Shown here: piece after piece, positions 18,832 through 25,762 of the stretch
Layout of the letters: every line of letters starts with the position of its first letter
How positions within the stretch are numbered: the first letter of the stretch is position 1
From: Nitratireductor pacificus pht-3B
GTDB taxonomy: Bacteria > Pseudomonadota > Alphaproteobacteria > Rhizobiales > Rhizobiaceae
Direction of reading: 5' to 3'
DNA length: 64,000 bases
Assembly (NCBI RefSeq): GCF_000300335.1
Contig: NZ_AMRM01000018.1
Location: forward strand, 1 to 64,000
Made by a program: the position numbers and the translations under genes
The notes under the pieces: model-generated
The model's database searches: none
Seen by the model: the letters and a program-made list of their open reading frames with translations, nothing else
What the model was told of the DNA's origin: nothing

Positions 18832-19671
18832 CTATCTCGTCTGCAGCCGGGCCGCGTGCCAGGCAAGGTGATCGTCCATGAAGGTCGAGATGAAGAAATA
18901 GGAATGGTCGTAGCCGTCGCGCATGTTGAGCGTCAGCGGGATCCCCGCCTTCCGGCAGGCCGCCTCGAACAGCCAGGGGCGCAGTCCCTCGTCCAGGAAG
19001 CCGTCGGCGCTTCCCTGGTCGATGAGAAACGCGTCGAAGCGATGCCCGTCTTCCACGAGGGCGCAGGCGTCGTGCGCCCGCCAGGCCGACCGGTCGCCGC
19101 CAAGGTATTTTTCCAGTGCTCCCTTCGACCAGCCGGCGGTTGACGGCTCGACGATGGGTGCGAAGGCGGAGCAGCTCCTGAACCGGTCCGGATTGCGCAG
19201 CGCCAGCGTCAGCGCCCCGTGGCCACCCATCGAATGGCCGAAAACGCCCTGGCGATCCATGTCGGCCGGAAAATTCTCGGCGATCAGTCGCGGCAGTTCC
19301 TCGATGACATAGGAATACATCCGGTAGTTTCGCGAGAAGGGCGCTTCGGTCGCATCGACATAGAAGCCGGCGCCCTTGCCGAACTGCCAGTTGTCCGGCT
19401 CGTCGGGCACATCGCCGCCGCGCGGACTCGTGTCCGGGCAGACGACGATCAGGCCCAGCTCCGCCGCCATGCGGCGATACTCGCCCTTGTCCATCACATT
19501 GGCATGCGTGCAGGTCAGGCCGGACAGATACCACAGCACCGGGCAGGGGGCTTTTGCGGCCTGCGGCGGCACGAAGACGGCGAAGGTCATGTCGCACCGG
19601 CAGGCGGAGGAGGCGTGGCTGTAGACGCCCTGGGTCCCGCCATGGGACCTGGCGGTGGAAACGGTTTTCAT
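18832..19671 (-). CDS. fghA: S-formylglutathione hydrolase
   Basis: This 279-residue serine esterase (esterase D family) hydrolyses S-formylglutathione to formate and glutathione, the last step of glutathione-dependent formaldehyde oxidation. The nucleophile serine 147 is in GHSMGG; the catalytic His is in YDHSYFF near the C-terminus. The conserved LSGLTCTHANVM and PDTSPRG segments are present. It is the third gene of the unit adhC-type dehydrogenase, UPF0178, fghA; the 2-nt gap to UPF0178 indicates one transcript. Confidence 0.96.
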   Translation of the reverse strand: MKTVSTARSHGGTQGVYSHASSACRCDMTFAVFVPPQAAKAPCPVLWYLSGLTCTHANVMDKGEYRRMAAELGLIVVCPDTSPRGGDVPDEPDNWQFGKGAGFYVDATEAPFSRNYRMYSYVIEELPRLIAENFPADMDRQGVFGHSMGGHGALTLALRNPDRFRSCSAFAPIVEPSTAGWSKGALEKYLGGDRSAWRAHDACALVEDGHRFDAFLIDQGSADGFLDEGLRPWLFEAACRKAGIPLTLNMRDGYDHSYFFISTFMDDHLAWHAARLQTR

Positions 19672-20150: not shown

Positions 20151-21278
<1,128 letters not shown>

Positions 21279-21428
21279 GATCGCGATTCTCCTGCTTCTT
21301 GCGATTTGCGTGTCAATGGGGGTTTGGGCAAGCACGCTTGCCCCGAAATCCGGGAGCATCAAGCCGGGCGTTTCTTGTAAGGCGGCTGTATATCAGCAAC
21401 CATGCCGGCCCGGCGCCTTCACATTTGG

Positions 21429-21438
21429 TCACATGTGA
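21429..21438. promoter_or_regulatory. TCACATGTGA palindrome in the frmA-lysR divergent region
   Basis: A perfect 10-bp palindrome lies 45 nt before the LysR start and about 150 nt before frmA. LysR proteins bind dyads in such divergent regions, so this is a candidate operator. No direct proof. Confidence 0.4.
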
Positions 21439-21482
21439 CGAACAATAGGACGCTGTCCGTTCGTCCGCGTTTTGAGGAATCC

Positions 21483-22418
21483 ATGGCCGATCTCCCACCC
21501 TTGAGAGCATTGCAGGTGTTCGAAGCCGTCGGCCGTCTGGGAAGCGTGACGAGGGCAGCACGGGAACTCCATGTGTCGCCGGGGGCGATCAGCCAGCAGA
21601 TCAAGAGCCTTGAGAATACACTTGAAACGCGTCTCGTCGAACGAAAGGGAAGCGGTATCGTCCTGACGAAGGTCGGGGCCGCCTTTCACAACGCCGTCGA
21701 GAAGACGTTCGCCGATCTCGTGAAGGCGCGGGTCGAGATCATCGACAAGCACAGGACGGGAGCGCTCATCATCAGCGCGCTGCCGCTGTTCGCCAGCCGC
21801 TGGCTGTCTTCGAGGATGTTTGCCTGGCAGACCTCCCATCCGCAGATCAACCTCCATCTGGAAGGTTCGGTCACCGAGCCGGCGACGGCCGAGCGCCCCT
21901 TCGACTTCCGCATCACCTATGCCGACAAGGCGCATCTGTTCGACAGTTTCGTCCCGCTGTTCACCGATGGCCTGTGCCCGGTGTGCAGCCCCGCCCTGAT
22001 CGCCAGCGGACCGCCGCTGAACACGCCGGCGGACCTGTTGTCGTACCGGCTCCTGACCATCGACTGGAGTGCGTTCCTGTCGCCGCCGCCCAGCTGGGAG
22101 GACTGGTTCCATCTGGTGAAGGTGGATGGCACGCATATTCCTCACTTCTTCGTCATGTCGCTGTCGAGCTTGGCGATCGAGGCGGCGATCGAGGGGCGCG
22201 GCATCGTGCTGGCGCAACGGGCCATGGTCGAGGACGAACTGAAAAGCGGCCGCCTCGTCGCGCCGTTTCCCGACGTGCTGAAGCTGCCGTCGCCCTATAT
22301 TCTCGGCTGGAAGAAATCAGTTTTCAGCAAGGCTGGCGCCGGTGAGTTTCATCGCTGGCTCGTCGGGCTCGCCCGCAAGGAGGATGTCGCTGCACCGGCG
22401 CCGAACGCTGCTATTTGA
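21483..22418 (+). CDS. LysR-family transcriptional regulator (GcvA-like)
   Basis: This 311-residue regulator starts with the winged helix (LPPLRALQVFEAVGRLGSVTRAARELHVSPGAISQQIKSLE), typical of the GcvA/AmpR subgroup, and a C-terminal periplasmic-binding-like effector domain. The ATG at 21483 is the start. It is divergent from frmA-UPF0178-fghA and its end overlaps by 8 nt the end of the convergent substrate-binding protein gene (22411). Control of the formaldehyde genes is the simplest inference; control of the 22-25 kb trio is the alternative. Confidence 0.9.
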   Translation: MADLPPLRALQVFEAVGRLGSVTRAARELHVSPGAISQQIKSLENTLETRLVERKGSGIVLTKVGAAFHNAVEKTFADLVKARVEIIDKHRTGALIISALPLFASRWLSSRMFAWQTSHPQINLHLEGSVTEPATAERPFDFRITYADKAHLFDSFVPLFTDGLCPVCSPALIASGPPLNTPADLLSYRLLTIDWSAFLSPPPSWEDWFHLVKVDGTHIPHFFVMSLSSLAIEAAIEGRGIVLAQRAMVEDELKSGRLVAPFPDVLKLPSPYILGWKKSVFSKAGAGEFHRWLVGLARKEDVAAPAPNAAI

Positions 22419-23574
22419 GGACTTCGATCTTTCCGCCGGATATCTTGGCGAAATAGACGTTCGGCCGGCTCTGCGCGCTTTCGGCGCCTTCCGGGCCGGA
22501 CTTGTCGAACGAGACCGCGCCGTTCAGGACATCGACCCTGGTGTTCCAGAGCGCCTCGCGGATCGCGTCGGGCTCGGTCGAACCGGCCCGCTCGATGGCC
22601 GAGGCGATGACCTGCACGCCGTCATAGCCGCGGAAGCTCTCGGTCAGGCCGGCGAAGTCGAAGCCTTTCGCCTTCCATGCTTCGATGAAACCACGCGTCT
22701 TTTCCGGGAAGGCCGTGCTGTCGGGATCCCACGGGGCGAAGAACACCAGATGCACGGTGTTTTCTGCCGCACTCCCCGCCTGTGCGACGAGCTGGTCGGG
22801 GTTCTGCGAACCGCCCGTGGTGATGATCTGTTTGTCGATGCCCAGCGCCGCCGCCTGTTTCAGCACCAGGGTCAGTTGCTCCACGGCGGTGGTGACGATC
22901 AGCGTGTCGGCGTCCGACGATTTCAGCTTGGAGAGCTGCGCGCTGACATCCTGGGACGCCTGGTCCATCAGCTCGACGAGGCCGACCTCGATGCCATGGT
23001 CCTTCATCGTCTTGCCGAACTGGTTGACCGTGTTCAGCCCCCAGTCGTTGTTGATGGCGAGGAAGTCGATCTTCCTGATGTTGAACTGATCGAGCTTCTC
23101 CTCGAAGCCGGCGGCCTCGATGACCTGCGTCGCGGCGATGCGGAAGATGAACGGGTTCCCGCTTTCGGTGATCTTGTTGGCGCCCGACGTCTCCACCACC
23201 ATCGGGACTTGGTACTGCATCAGCTTCGGCATCGCGGCCAGCGTCAGGCTGGACCCCCATGCGCCAAGGATGACCGGCACCTTGTCGCGGACAATGAGCT
23301 TTTCCGTGACGGTCGCTGCTTCCGTCGGGTTGCTCTTGTTGTCCTCGAGAATCAACGTCAGGGTCTTGCCGCCAAGAACCCCGCCTTTTGCGTTGATCTC
23401 GTCGATGGCGATCCGCGCGCCATCGGCGACATAGGTGCCGGACGCTGCGAAGGCACCGGTCAGCGGCATGTTCATGCCGATGGCGATGTCCTCGGCTTGC
23501 GCCTGGGCCAGAGCCGCGCCGATCAGCCCGCAGGCCGCGAGCACTGCCCGGGAAAGGGTGTTTCTTCGTTTCAT
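22411..23574 (-). CDS. Orphan ABC-type substrate-binding protein of the branched-chain amino acid class
   Basis: This 387-residue periplasmic protein of the LivJ/type I receptor-ligand family has a signal peptide (RRNTLSRAVLAACGLIGAALAQAQA), the IGMNMPLTGAFAASG ligand-loop start, and DGARIAIDEINAKGGVLGGKTL. The start ATG has GGAGGAGAA upstream. No permease or ATPase genes accompany it. It is instead in line with a 2Fe-2S reductase and a ferritin-like protein (gaps 52 and 142 nt). It could capture the substrate of that redox pair, work with a transporter encoded elsewhere, or feed a sensor. Ligand unknown. Confidence 0.9.
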   Translation of the reverse strand: MKRRNTLSRAVLAACGLIGAALAQAQAEDIAIGMNMPLTGAFAASGTYVADGARIAIDEINAKGGVLGGKTLTLILEDNKSNPTEAATVTEKLIVRDKVPVILGAWGSSLTLAAMPKLMQYQVPMVVETSGANKITESGNPFIFRIAATQVIEAAGFEEKLDQFNIRKIDFLAINNDWGLNTVNQFGKTMKDHGIEVGLVELMDQASQDVSAQLSKLKSSDADTLIVTTAVEQLTLVLKQAAALGIDKQIITTGGSQNPDQLVAQAGSAAENTVHLVFFAPWDPDSTAFPEKTRGFIEAWKAKGFDFAGLTESFRGYDGVQVIASAIERAGSTEPDAIREALWNTRVDVLNGAVSFDKSGPEGAESAQSRPNVYFAKISGGKIEVLK

Positions 23575-23626
23575 GATGTTCTCCTCCTTGTTGTTTTTGG
23601 GGGCTGTCGTCGTGGGGATTCCTCTC

Positions 23627-24607
23627 TCAAAGATCGAGCACCAGCGTTGCCGTCCTGGACCTCGATACGCAGGGCAGGACCACGTCGCCCGCTTCGCGCT
23701 GCTGATCGTTGAGAATGTCGTCATTGTGTTCGGGGATGCCGGCGAGCACGCGCACGAGGCAGGTGCCGCAGATGCCGGCGCGGCAGGAATTGGTGATGGC
23801 GCAGCCCGCATCCTCCAGGACGCTGAGCATGGAGCGGTCGGCCGGCACGACGACGCGCCGGCCGGACCGGGCGAGCTCGACCTCGAATGCGCCGGGATCG
23901 AGCGGTGTCTGGCGCTCGGACGGCGCGAAGCGCTCCTTGCGCAGGGCTCCCGACGGCCATGACGCGCACCGGTTCTCGACCGCTTCGATCAGGGGCTCCG
24001 GCCCGCAGCAATAGACGGCGCGTCCCGGCTCATGGGCGGTCAGGCAGGCATCGAGATCGAGAAGCCCGCATTCATCCTCCGGGCAGAGTTCCAGCGTGCC
24101 TCCGGCGAGCGTCGCGATCTCGTCCGTGAAAGCCATCGAGCGAGCGGTGCGGCCGCCATAGAGCAGGTGCCATTCGGCTCCGCGCGCCGACAGTTCCGCC
24201 AGCATGGGCAGGATCGGCGTGATGCCGATGCCCCCGGCAATGAAAAGATAGCGCTCTGCCGGATCGAGCGGAAAATTGTTGCGCGGATGGCTGGCTACAA
24301 GCCGGTCTCCGGCCCGCAGTTCTGAATGGATGTAGCTGGAGCCGCCGCGGCTTGCCGGGGCGAGCAGCACGCCGATCCGCCAGCGGCTCGTGTCGGCGGG
24401 GTCGCCGCAAAGCGAGTATTGCCGGGTCACGCCGTTGGGCAGGATGAGATCGATATGCGCTCCGGGAGACCAGCCCGGCAGCGGCCCGCCATCGGCTTTT
24501 GCAAGCGTGAGCGCCACAACGCCGTCCGCGACGGAGACACATCTCTCGATCCGCAGCGAGAGCTGTTCGTCCGCATTCTTCGCGGGAATGATGGCTGCTT
24601 GGTTCAT
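23627..24607 (-). CDS. Phthalate dioxygenase reductase-type (PDR/VanB) oxidoreductase
   Basis: This 326-residue protein joins an FMN-binding ferredoxin-NADP reductase domain (RQYSLCGDPADTSRWRIGV near residues 66-84, NAD-binding GGIGITPILPML) to a C-terminal plant-type 2Fe-2S ferredoxin domain with cysteines in CRAGICGTC and a fourth 29 residues later. This order (FNR then 2Fe-2S at the C-terminus) is that of PDR/VanB proteins, which deliver electrons from NADH to oxygenases. The ATG at 24607 is chosen over 24661. The neighbour at 24750 is a ferritin-like candidate oxygenase, so this is its likely electron donor. Confidence 0.92.
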   Translation of the reverse strand: MNQAAIIPAKNADEQLSLRIERCVSVADGVVALTLAKADGGPLPGWSPGAHIDLILPNGVTRQYSLCGDPADTSRWRIGVLLAPASRGGSSYIHSELRAGDRLVASHPRNNFPLDPAERYLFIAGGIGITPILPMLAELSARGAEWHLLYGGRTARSMAFTDEIATLAGGTLELCPEDECGLLDLDACLTAHEPGRAVYCCGPEPLIEAVENRCASWPSGALRKERFAPSERQTPLDPGAFEVELARSGRRVVVPADRSMLSVLEDAGCAITNSCRAGICGTCLVRVLAGIPEHNDDILNDQQREAGDVVLPCVSRSRTATLVLDL

Positions 24608-24749
24608 GGCAGACGGCCTTTCGGGTTCGTTCGGGCACGCATCGGCTTCCCGCCCCGCCACAGGCGAGGCGCCAGCACCGATGATCGGGTGTTCGTGTCA
24701 TTGCGTTCCGGCCGAAACGCTCGGGCGCGTCGCGGCCGGAATTCCCGCC

Positions 24750-25445
24750 TCAGGCCGCGCGCATCGTCGCCGCGACCACCTCGGGCGTGAAGGATTTCCA
24801 GGCGATGTCGCGCATGCCGCGCATGGCGCGGAGGATTTCCTCCCGGTCCTCGTCGGTCTCGGCATAGGTCGAAAGCACCTGGCGGCCGAGCCCGGTGTGG
24901 AACTTTTCGTCGATCTCGATCTGCTTGTAGATCTTCACCACATCGGTGTGGCCGTGGCGCTCGGCGCCGACGAATGTCGGCTCGAAACTGCCTGAAGCGG
25001 AGGTTTCCGAGACGTACCAGGCGGCGATGGCGGCCAGATGATGGCGGTCCATGCACTCCCAGAGGAAATTGCTCCACGGCACAGCGGCGACAGGAACGGA
25101 AGTCGGCACGATGCCGCCTAGGGATTCCACGGCCTTGCCGAGGGCCTCGTAGTGCTCCGCCTCCTGAAACGACTGCTTGGCGAGCAGCGTGATATGGTTG
25201 CGCTGGAAGCGCATCCCGTACCGGCGGATCTGCTCGTTGAGCAGGAACACATAGTCGATCTCGCGCCAGCAGCGCGTTTCCAGCCAGGATGCCAGAACCG
25301 CCTTGTTCGGATTCTCGGAATATTTGTCGAAGAACGACTTGGTGGCGTCGCGCGTGATTTCTTCTACGCTCTGTAGAATTTCGTCGACCTCTGCGTCGAT
25401 CGCTGCGAGACCATTTCCGCCCCTGACTTGTTTCGTATCAAGCAT
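24750..25445 (-). CDS. Ferritin-like protein with two ExxH motifs, candidate di-iron oxygenase
   Basis: This 231-residue, all-helical protein has E95-x-x-H98 (QEAEHYEALG) and E180-x-x-H183 (DEKFHTGLG), plus glutamates in the first helix (ETRCWREID, E56/E62) and third helix (YVSETSASG, E147). This spacing of four helices carrying E, ExxH, E, ExxH is the pattern of ferritin-like di-iron carboxylate proteins. Start: an ATG at 25445 with GGAGAA upstream. A dedicated NADH reductase follows 142 nt downstream, as for di-iron mono-oxygenases. I do not recognise a characterised family member. Chemistry and substrate are unknown; a TenA/haem-oxygenase-like fold is the main alternative. Confidence 0.7.
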   Translation of the reverse strand: MLDTKQVRGGNGLAAIDAEVDEILQSVEEITRDATKSFFDKYSENPNKAVLASWLETRCWREIDYVFLLNEQIRRYGMRFQRNHITLLAKQSFQEAEHYEALGKAVESLGGIVPTSVPVAAVPWSNFLWECMDRHHLAAIAAWYVSETSASGSFEPTFVGAERHGHTDVVKIYKQIEIDEKFHTGLGRQVLSTYAETDEDREEILRAMRGMRDIAWKSFTPEVVAATMRAA

Positions 25446-25513
25446 AGAAGTTTCTCCTCTGTCTATGCCGTCAATCAGATTGGCTAACCCATTCAAAGTC
25501 AACGATATTTCCT

Positions 25514-25549
25514 TTTAGAAAACCTGCTTCCATTTTTAGTTTTCCTAAA
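25514..25549. promoter_or_regulatory. AT-rich imperfect dyads upstream of the ferritin-like gene
   Basis: Two overlapping dyads stand out in the 317-nt divergent gap to pccA: TTTAGAAAAC (25514-25523) with GTTTTCCTAAA (25539-25549), and the compact TTTAG-TTTTC-CTAAA (25535-25549). The A+T content differs from surroundings. They lie 70-105 nt upstream of the ferritin-like gene start. A similarity to rhizobial iron-response (Irr/ICE-type) elements is suggestive only. The rest of the gap (25446-25762) shows no gene. Confidence 0.4.
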
Positions 25550-25762
25550 TATATGGCTTTGGCCGGAAGGTGCGGAACCGGTCGATCCAGCATTGCGAGG
25601 CGCGGCATCGACGTCGGGTTGCGTCGCCGGAAGGCGCAGCAGCGGCGAAGGTGATCGCTGGGGACAAACCGGGTTCGCACCGATGCAGCCTGCGGGGCGC
25701 TTGAGCCGCCGCGAGCAAACCCATAGAACAGGGAAAACACCGTCCCGGGGGAAACGCCGTTC

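Follow-up and report, generated by a model that had tools for sequence, protein, structure and literature searches.

The question raised by the locus described here is what an uncharacterised gene, followed in the same direction by genes for a reductase and a periplasmic binding protein, may encode, and on what its product may act. The locus lies in a 64,000-nucleotide stretch of Nitratireductor pacificus pht-3B DNA (contig NZ_AMRM01000018.1, positions 1 to 64,000), referred to below as the window. The three genes, FL, RED, and that of the binding protein, are all found on the minus strand, where the first-pass annotation of this DNA had placed them. FL and RED constitute a real two-gene oxygenase module present in two phyla, which here is located in an island beside a formaldehyde dehydrogenase gene. 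Their earlier description as a two-component di-iron oxygenase is supported, as regards a dimetal enzyme, by sequence and structural model, the function being a prediction. With a little better than an even chance, FL/RED would be an O2- and NAD(P)H-dependent monooxygenase that acts on a small carboxylate or zwitterion taken up by the cell and releases one of its one-carbon substituents as formaldehyde.

FL is present in five of the 297 genomes of the family to which the window belongs (its own included), and 398 genomes of the phylum, searched by alignment, gave two matches, one in the window's own genome and the other in G570. The latter, a 402-codon open frame (L041, G570:C1:1414091-1414456) matching the FL profile weakly, at 21 bits, is possibly a distant relative. 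In the order to which the mycobacterial relative G697 belongs, 397 genomes gave two matches, G695 and G697, while plasmids and PHROGs yielded no match. A scan of contigs with the first six FL sequences revealed 28 loci (L012-L039), several of them common to the family search (L012 = G255, L013 and L020 = G238, L016 = G179, L026 = G221); it rests on two short peptide patterns, and therefore more distant relatives can be missed. Counting the window, the total is 29, of which 15 are alphaproteobacterial (Nitratireductor soli, Pseudaminobacter, Paracoccus, Pararhodobacter, Devosia, Mesorhizobium, and other Rhizobiales) and 14 actinobacterial (Pseudonocardia, Saccharopolyspora, Amycolatopsis, Prauserella, Mycolicibacterium/Mycobacterium, and one Solirubrobacterales metagenome-assembled genome). 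FL occurs in one copy per genome for the 20 loci searched, with two copies in G238.

In 27 of the 28 relatives RED comes immediately after FL, the two being separated by -11 to 172 bases (start codons picked by a script); in the 28th, L039, the contig stops 257 bases after FL. The distance matrices of the two proteins are correlated (Mantel r 0.79, n = 28 including the window, with 0 of 5000 permutations as high), which is partly a matter of shared descent. Conserved linkage of all three genes had been set beforehand as a test: it holds for the pair FL and RED and fails for the trio, which was rejected as a conserved unit, the binding protein being encoded near FL in 4/29 loci (the window, L012, L013, and L014).

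The assignment of RED as an FNR-2Fe-2S reductase of the phthalate dioxygenase reductase (PDR) type was confirmed. It comprises a flavin domain, an NAD domain (NAD_binding_1, 32.9 bits, cut-off 22), and a C-terminal plant-type [2Fe-2S] domain (Fer2, 54.6 bits, cut-off 21), whose four cysteines, C275, C280, C283, and C313, are invariant in all 28 aligned sequences. Its best solved relatives are phthalate dioxygenase reductase 2pia, matching residues 14-326 at E 7.1e-57, and 6kbh and 6laa, two P450s with a reductase part, which we take to be of the CYP116B class.

FL itself reaches no Pfam family cut-off and has no NCBIfam match at E <= 1, and the best E-values against PDB sequences are 0.59 with phmmer and 0.054 with a profile. 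PF11266 and PF14518 found nothing at E <= 0.001 in the window's genome, so PF14518 misses FL itself at that threshold. The protein had been called ferritin-like, of the four-helix type, and the ExxH motifs are indeed present; as a fold, however, this was set aside after comparison of the predicted model with solved structures, and the model appears heme-oxygenase-like rather than plain ferritin-like. The structures sharing the predicted fold include CADD, UndA, BesC, AetD, HrmI, TenA, and PqqC, and aldehyde-deformylating oxygenase overlaps with it partially. E62, E95, H98, E147, E180, and H183 are invariant in 29/29 aligned FL sequences; E56, put forward earlier alongside E62, is E in only 7/29. 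The pattern E, ExxH, E, ExxH is distributed over predicted helices 48-79, 82-108, 138-151, and 167-194, and on four helices it is that of ferritin-like di-iron oxygenases. Judging from the helix positions, from spacings matching those of MboA, and from the invariance, the six residues probably converge on a dimetal site. Position 176 is Ile in all 29 rows, so that the motif reads E95-H98-E147-I176-E180-H183, and not E-H-E-H-(D/E)-H, the canonical motif of the heme-oxygenase-fold dimetal oxygenases (HDOs) given in PMC11363339; FL may thus work like an HDO without being filed as a canonical one. Position 173, two helical turns before E180, is occupied by Tyr in 23 sequences and by His in six, the latter being the six mycobacterial ones.

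What the enzyme may release is indicated by the adjacent genes, examined up to 10 kb on each side of FL (incompletely in 7/29 loci). A gene for S-(hydroxymethyl)glutathione dehydrogenase (SFDH), at least 70% identical, lies in the flank in the window, L012, L016, L019, L021, L023, and L036. The flanks of L025, L028, and L029 contain, at the same level of identity, a gene for a formaldehyde dehydrogenase of the mycothiol type (named by eye). A formaldehyde dehydrogenase is thereby linked in 10/29 loci, namely 7/15 alphaproteobacterial and 3/7 non-mycobacterial actinobacterial ones. L016, L019, and L021 also encode a Gfa-like protein; in L025 and L028 the mycothiol-type gene adjoins a gene for an MBL-fold protein. 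In G179 (L016) and G686 (L019), FL, RED, SFDH, Gfa, and MHS genes stand in a row, and besides this linked SFDH, the more divergent of two, each genome has another copy elsewhere. Across 25 genomes (12 counted with the window SFDH and 13 with the L025 protein, copies of at least 70% identity being entered by hand and partial matches at contig ends counted as copies), linkage was observed in nine against 0.16 expected (Poisson P 1.7e-13); for the five distinct gene arrangements recognised by eye, P(>=5) is 7.8e-7. Statistically, the formaldehyde link is strong.

In the proposed mechanism, RED would pass electrons from NAD(P)H via flavin and the [2Fe-2S] cluster, the route known for its family, to the dimetal site of FL. 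This site would activate O2 and oxidise the one-carbon substituent of the imported compound, most likely an N-methyl (or O-methyl) group, and the hemiaminal or hemiacetal formed would break down to formaldehyde and the demethylated product. A thiol-dependent dehydrogenase, in this genome the SFDH encoded next to the island, would then dispose of the formaldehyde. Demethylation is the simplest mechanism, and the chances that it is the actual one are about even; metal content, electron transfer, formaldehyde release, demethylation, and regulation are all what we infer.

Several observations weigh against such a function. The examined flank of 19/29 loci, all six mycobacterial ones and the Solirubrobacterales one among them, holds no such formaldehyde dehydrogenase gene; the formaldehyde genes were picked for counting after having been noticed, and the loci are related, the genomes not being independent. 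SFDH is ancestral in the genome studied, so its adjacency, which N. soli shares, amounts to a single event; between SFDH and the neighbouring LysR-family gene, no copy of the putative operator described below is found at up to 2 mismatches. The sets of neighbours vary so widely (molybdenum hydroxylase (MoXDH), F420, TctABC, or racemase genes) that no substrate satisfies all of them. The Foldseek E-values of FL are modest (the best being 5.2e-4), its identity to the listed solved structures is 6-15%, and the predicted model, from which the helix positions of the presumed ligands are taken, is metal-free. Finally, other HDOs also need a reductant, SznF, UndA, and BesC requiring a reducing agent for repeated turnover according to PMC11363339, so a reductase alone is no proof of new chemistry.

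The 19 loci lacking the dehydrogenase gene in the examined flank would suit a hydroxylase, desaturase, or N-oxygenase, with formaldehyde arising in another step of the same pathway, and so would the MoXDH, M20 hydrolase, CoA transferase, or F420 genes of mycobacterial and some alphaproteobacterial clusters. This is rather unlikely, as in the window, N. soli, and L014 the conserved unit consists of FL, RED, the binding protein, and LysR genes and is not accompanied by any further gene of evident catabolic function, as it lies against SFDH in the first two, and as SFDH is part of the same gene row as FL and RED in G179 and G686. The formaldehyde genes would be explained just as well by a BesC-like carbon-carbon cleavage, in which FL would break up an amine or amino alcohol; formaldehyde, and possibly ammonia, would then arise with no methyl group being removed. 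BesC, with which FL shares its predicted fold, converts 4-chloro-lysine into formaldehyde and ammonia (PMC13108848), yet its site is of the canonical HDO type (PMC11363339), which FL does not have, and according to the review PMC13108848 the HDOs studied so far need no protein effector, though MboA needs MboB (PMC13185094). Cleavage of this kind is considered unlikely for FL. A pattern of two histidines and four carboxylates is known in aldehyde-deformylating oxygenase and PaaA, and FL displays it too, but its predicted helix set is larger and of the heme-oxygenase type. That FL is simply a ferritin-like di-iron oxygenase of either of these types, or of the ribonucleotide reductase type, is improbable. 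That FL has no redox chemistry of its own, being an iron store, a sensor, or a metal-free enzyme like PqqC or TenA, which have the same fold, is highly improbable given the six invariant predicted ligands and the dedicated reductase directly behind it in 27/28 loci.

The setting of the FL/RED pair, the candidate formaldehyde-releasing monooxygenase, is that of an inserted island (Table 1). FL was not found in 8 of 10 Nitratireductor genomes sampled (G040, G136, G200, and G1097-G1101, two of which are 86% complete). In all eight, SFDH adjoins pccA at a distance of 191 to 208 bases (the pccA start in G1100 being taken from a separate piece), and the order of YaiI-like, S-formylglutathione hydrolase, XRE, gcvT, and gcvP genes after SFDH is kept. 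The same genes, named by eye from translations, follow beyond LysR in the window (SFDH, YaiI-like gene, S-formylglutathione hydrolase, XRE-type regulator, gcvT, gcvP), and in the window and N. soli the FL, RED, binding protein, and LysR genes stand between SFDH and pccA. Compared with the island-free relatives, a match persists over roughly 75 to 100 bases upstream of pccA and over only about 10 bases upstream of SFDH, at its ribosome-binding site; LysR is thus now divergent from SFDH. The window and N. soli agree at 155/226 positions (69%) of the LysR-SFDH region. By this comparison the divergent pccA is ancestral context, and the suggestion that a C3 product is handed to it finds no support; pccA was rejected as a pathway partner. 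The neighbouring glycine cleavage genes, a possible hint at sarcosine, were likewise rejected: all eight relatives without FL have gcvT and gcvP in the same place. The span originally annotated, 22411..25549, encloses the trio and ends in the 15 bases of the likely operator; the LysR gene and SFDH, which are part of the picture, lie outside it or at its edge.

Table 1. Features of the FL/RED locus and its surroundings (positions in the window)
Feature	Position	Strand	Remarks
FL, heme-oxygenase-fold dimetal oxygenase candidate, 231 aa	24750..25445	-	predicted ligands E62, E95, H98, E147, E180, H183
RED, phthalate-dioxygenase-reductase-type reductase, 326 aa	23627..24607	-	Fer2 and NAD_binding_1 over cut-offs
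Periplasmic binding protein, branched-chain amino-acid type, 387 aa	22411..23574	-	Peripla_BP_6; optional uptake part
LysR-family regulator	21483..22418	+	start picked by eye; convergent with binding protein, divergent from SFDH
Likely LysR operator, palindrome TTTAGTTTTCCTAAA	25535..25549	.	starts 104 bases upstream of FL start
S-(hydroxymethyl)glutathione dehydrogenase (class III alcohol dehydrogenase, SFDH)	20151..21278	-	name by eye; adjoins island
S-formylglutathione hydrolase	18832..19671	-	name by eye; conserved context
Inserted island	21279..25690	.	approximate borders

In Alphaproteobacteria, expression of the operon would be controlled by the LysR regulator, whose nearest NCBIfam model is GcvA (223 bits, below the cut-off of 288), acting via the palindrome TTTAG-N5-CTAAA. 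The copy at 25535-25549, likely the LysR operator, is the single exact one in the 4.47-Mb genome, in which a reversed-pattern control has 2. In the 64-kb window 0.06 copies with up to 1 mismatch are expected, and 6/100 shuffles had at least one, so the argument is carried by position and conservation. The palindrome is present with 0 or 1 mismatch within 260 bases upstream of FL in 12 of the 14 alphaproteobacterial loci with upstream sequence, has 2 mismatches in L013, and is absent in L014; a LysR gene lies in the flank of the same 14. None of the 14 actinobacterial loci has it in these 260 bases, and a GntR gene is found near FL in 13 of them. Five further copies (0 or 1 mismatch) occur elsewhere in FL loci, two of them in L026. 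Second palindromes at L015:7630, L016:6104, and L019:2258 (the last with 1 mismatch) precede a TctC or proline-racemase-family gene and then an lldD-like gene, which suggests that these genes, the latter for an FMN enzyme, share the FL regulon; those of L016 and L019 also face a divergent gene. In all seven genomes counted for exact copies the reversed control was as frequent or more so (3 vs 8 in G179, 0 vs 3 in G255).

The binding protein (Peripla_BP_6, 191.2 bits, cut-off 31.7) was initially regarded as an orphan, which is true of this genome's neighbourhood only, because its orthologue in Pseudaminobacter arsenicus (L013) is followed by a LysR gene and then by LivH, LivM, LivG, and LivF (named by eye). 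As a dedicated capture protein it applies to the four loci listed above; in other loci, the transporter genes close by are for an MHS symporter, TctABC, TRAP, or an NCS1-type protein. The clusters of G179, G221, G684, and G685 comprise, in varying combinations and with gene names mostly by eye, a CoxMSL-type molybdenum hydroxylase, CoxG, an M20 ArgE/DapE-type deacylase, a TRAP transporter, GntR, a 110-aa cupin, a thiamine diphosphate (ThDP) enzyme, a short-chain dehydrogenase (SDR), a betaine-aldehyde-dehydrogenase-like aldehyde dehydrogenase, and diaminopropionate ammonia-lyase (470.8 bits in G684, cut-off 276). This cluster recurs at L065, L073, L088, and L091, its gene set varying by locus. 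A GntR gene is present in all six mycobacterial loci; five of these also encode a MoXDH large subunit and an NCS1-type permease (that of G697 scoring 134.9 bits, below the cut-off of 353), and npdG occurs in three (171.5 bits in G697, cut-off 149.8). Next to an FL locus, the alphaproteobacterium P. arsenicus (G238, L062:5795-14273) carries a gene for an LLM oxidoreductase of the F420 type (209.2 bits, cut-off 166.9), genes for CoA-transferase subunits, and npdG-like and cofE/cofD-like genes, the last two kinds named by eye; some Mycolicibacterium have comparable LLM, CoA-transferase, and npdG genes near FL. Two proline-racemase-family proteins (L016:6498-7511, L018:14950-15963) have MCGHG at the first site and DRSPGGTG at the second, where the family has Cys (epimerase) or Thr (dehydratase), and possibly represent a third subtype. 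As substrates, N-methylprolines or betaines (racemase, ProP-like symporter), N-methyl pyridines (MoXDH), methylxanthines (NCS1-type permease, XDH-like genes), and beta-N-methylaminoalanine (diaminopropionate ammonia-lyase) each fit some loci and not others, and none was chosen. The mycobacterial M20 hydrolases and purine nucleoside phosphorylase were set aside as pathway parts, the gene order presumably being the same in mycobacteria that have no FL.

We tentatively propose, at somewhat under an even chance, that FL represents a catabolic branch of HDOs in which an active-site His is exchanged for a Glu of a neighbouring helix, giving a ferritin-type site of two His and four Glu on a heme-oxygenase fold, in a PDR-driven oxidative demethylase that is neither a Rieske enzyme nor a P450. 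The predicted ligand set on this fold would be the most novel part. In the open-access literature, among the matches listed and with subscription journals and most preprints outside, no catabolic system is described in which an HDO, or a di-iron demethylase of another kind, works with a PDR-type reductase. If the proposal is true, FL/RED would be, as far as that literature shows, the first such enzyme described in nutrient catabolism: an HDO-type enzyme, with ferritin-type ligands and its own reductase, would have been recruited there, and oxidative demethylation would gain a di-iron route in addition to those of Rieske oxygenases and P450s. It would bridge two great families of di-iron oxygenases, and provide a natural test of their fold relations and of how a di-iron peroxo species chooses among desaturation, N-oxygenation, and C-H hydroxylation. 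The spread of FL over Alphaproteobacteria and Actinobacteria and its linkage to two thiol systems for formaldehyde make the idea directly testable.

Among known systems, the oxidative demethylases of the VanAB, NdmABD, and GbcAB type also have a PDR-type reductase and yield formaldehyde as a by-product, but their oxygenase is a Rieske protein, which FL is not. CADD, UndA, BesC, AetD, and HrmI resemble FL in fold, predicted in its case, and BesC in its formaldehyde product as well (PMC13108848). Apart from the Ile in its motif, FL differs from the HDOs in its dedicated reductase and apparently catabolic setting; SznF has a seventh ligand, a Glu (PMC11363339). According to PMC13185094, the mangotoxin pair MboA/MboB, perhaps the first characterised dedicated pair of an HDO and its redox partner, consists, as is predicted for FL/RED, of a heme-oxygenase-fold enzyme and a partner of the NAD(P)H-flavin-[2Fe-2S] type encoded by its own gene. 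E86-xx-H89, E143, and D176 of MboA align by spacing with E95-xx-H98, E147, and E180 of FL. MboA, however, keeps three His (89, 172, and 181; PMC13185094), whereas FL has Ile at the position of the second and the extra invariant E62, and MboAB is biosynthetic, whereas FL/RED is located beside genes for uptake and formaldehyde removal.

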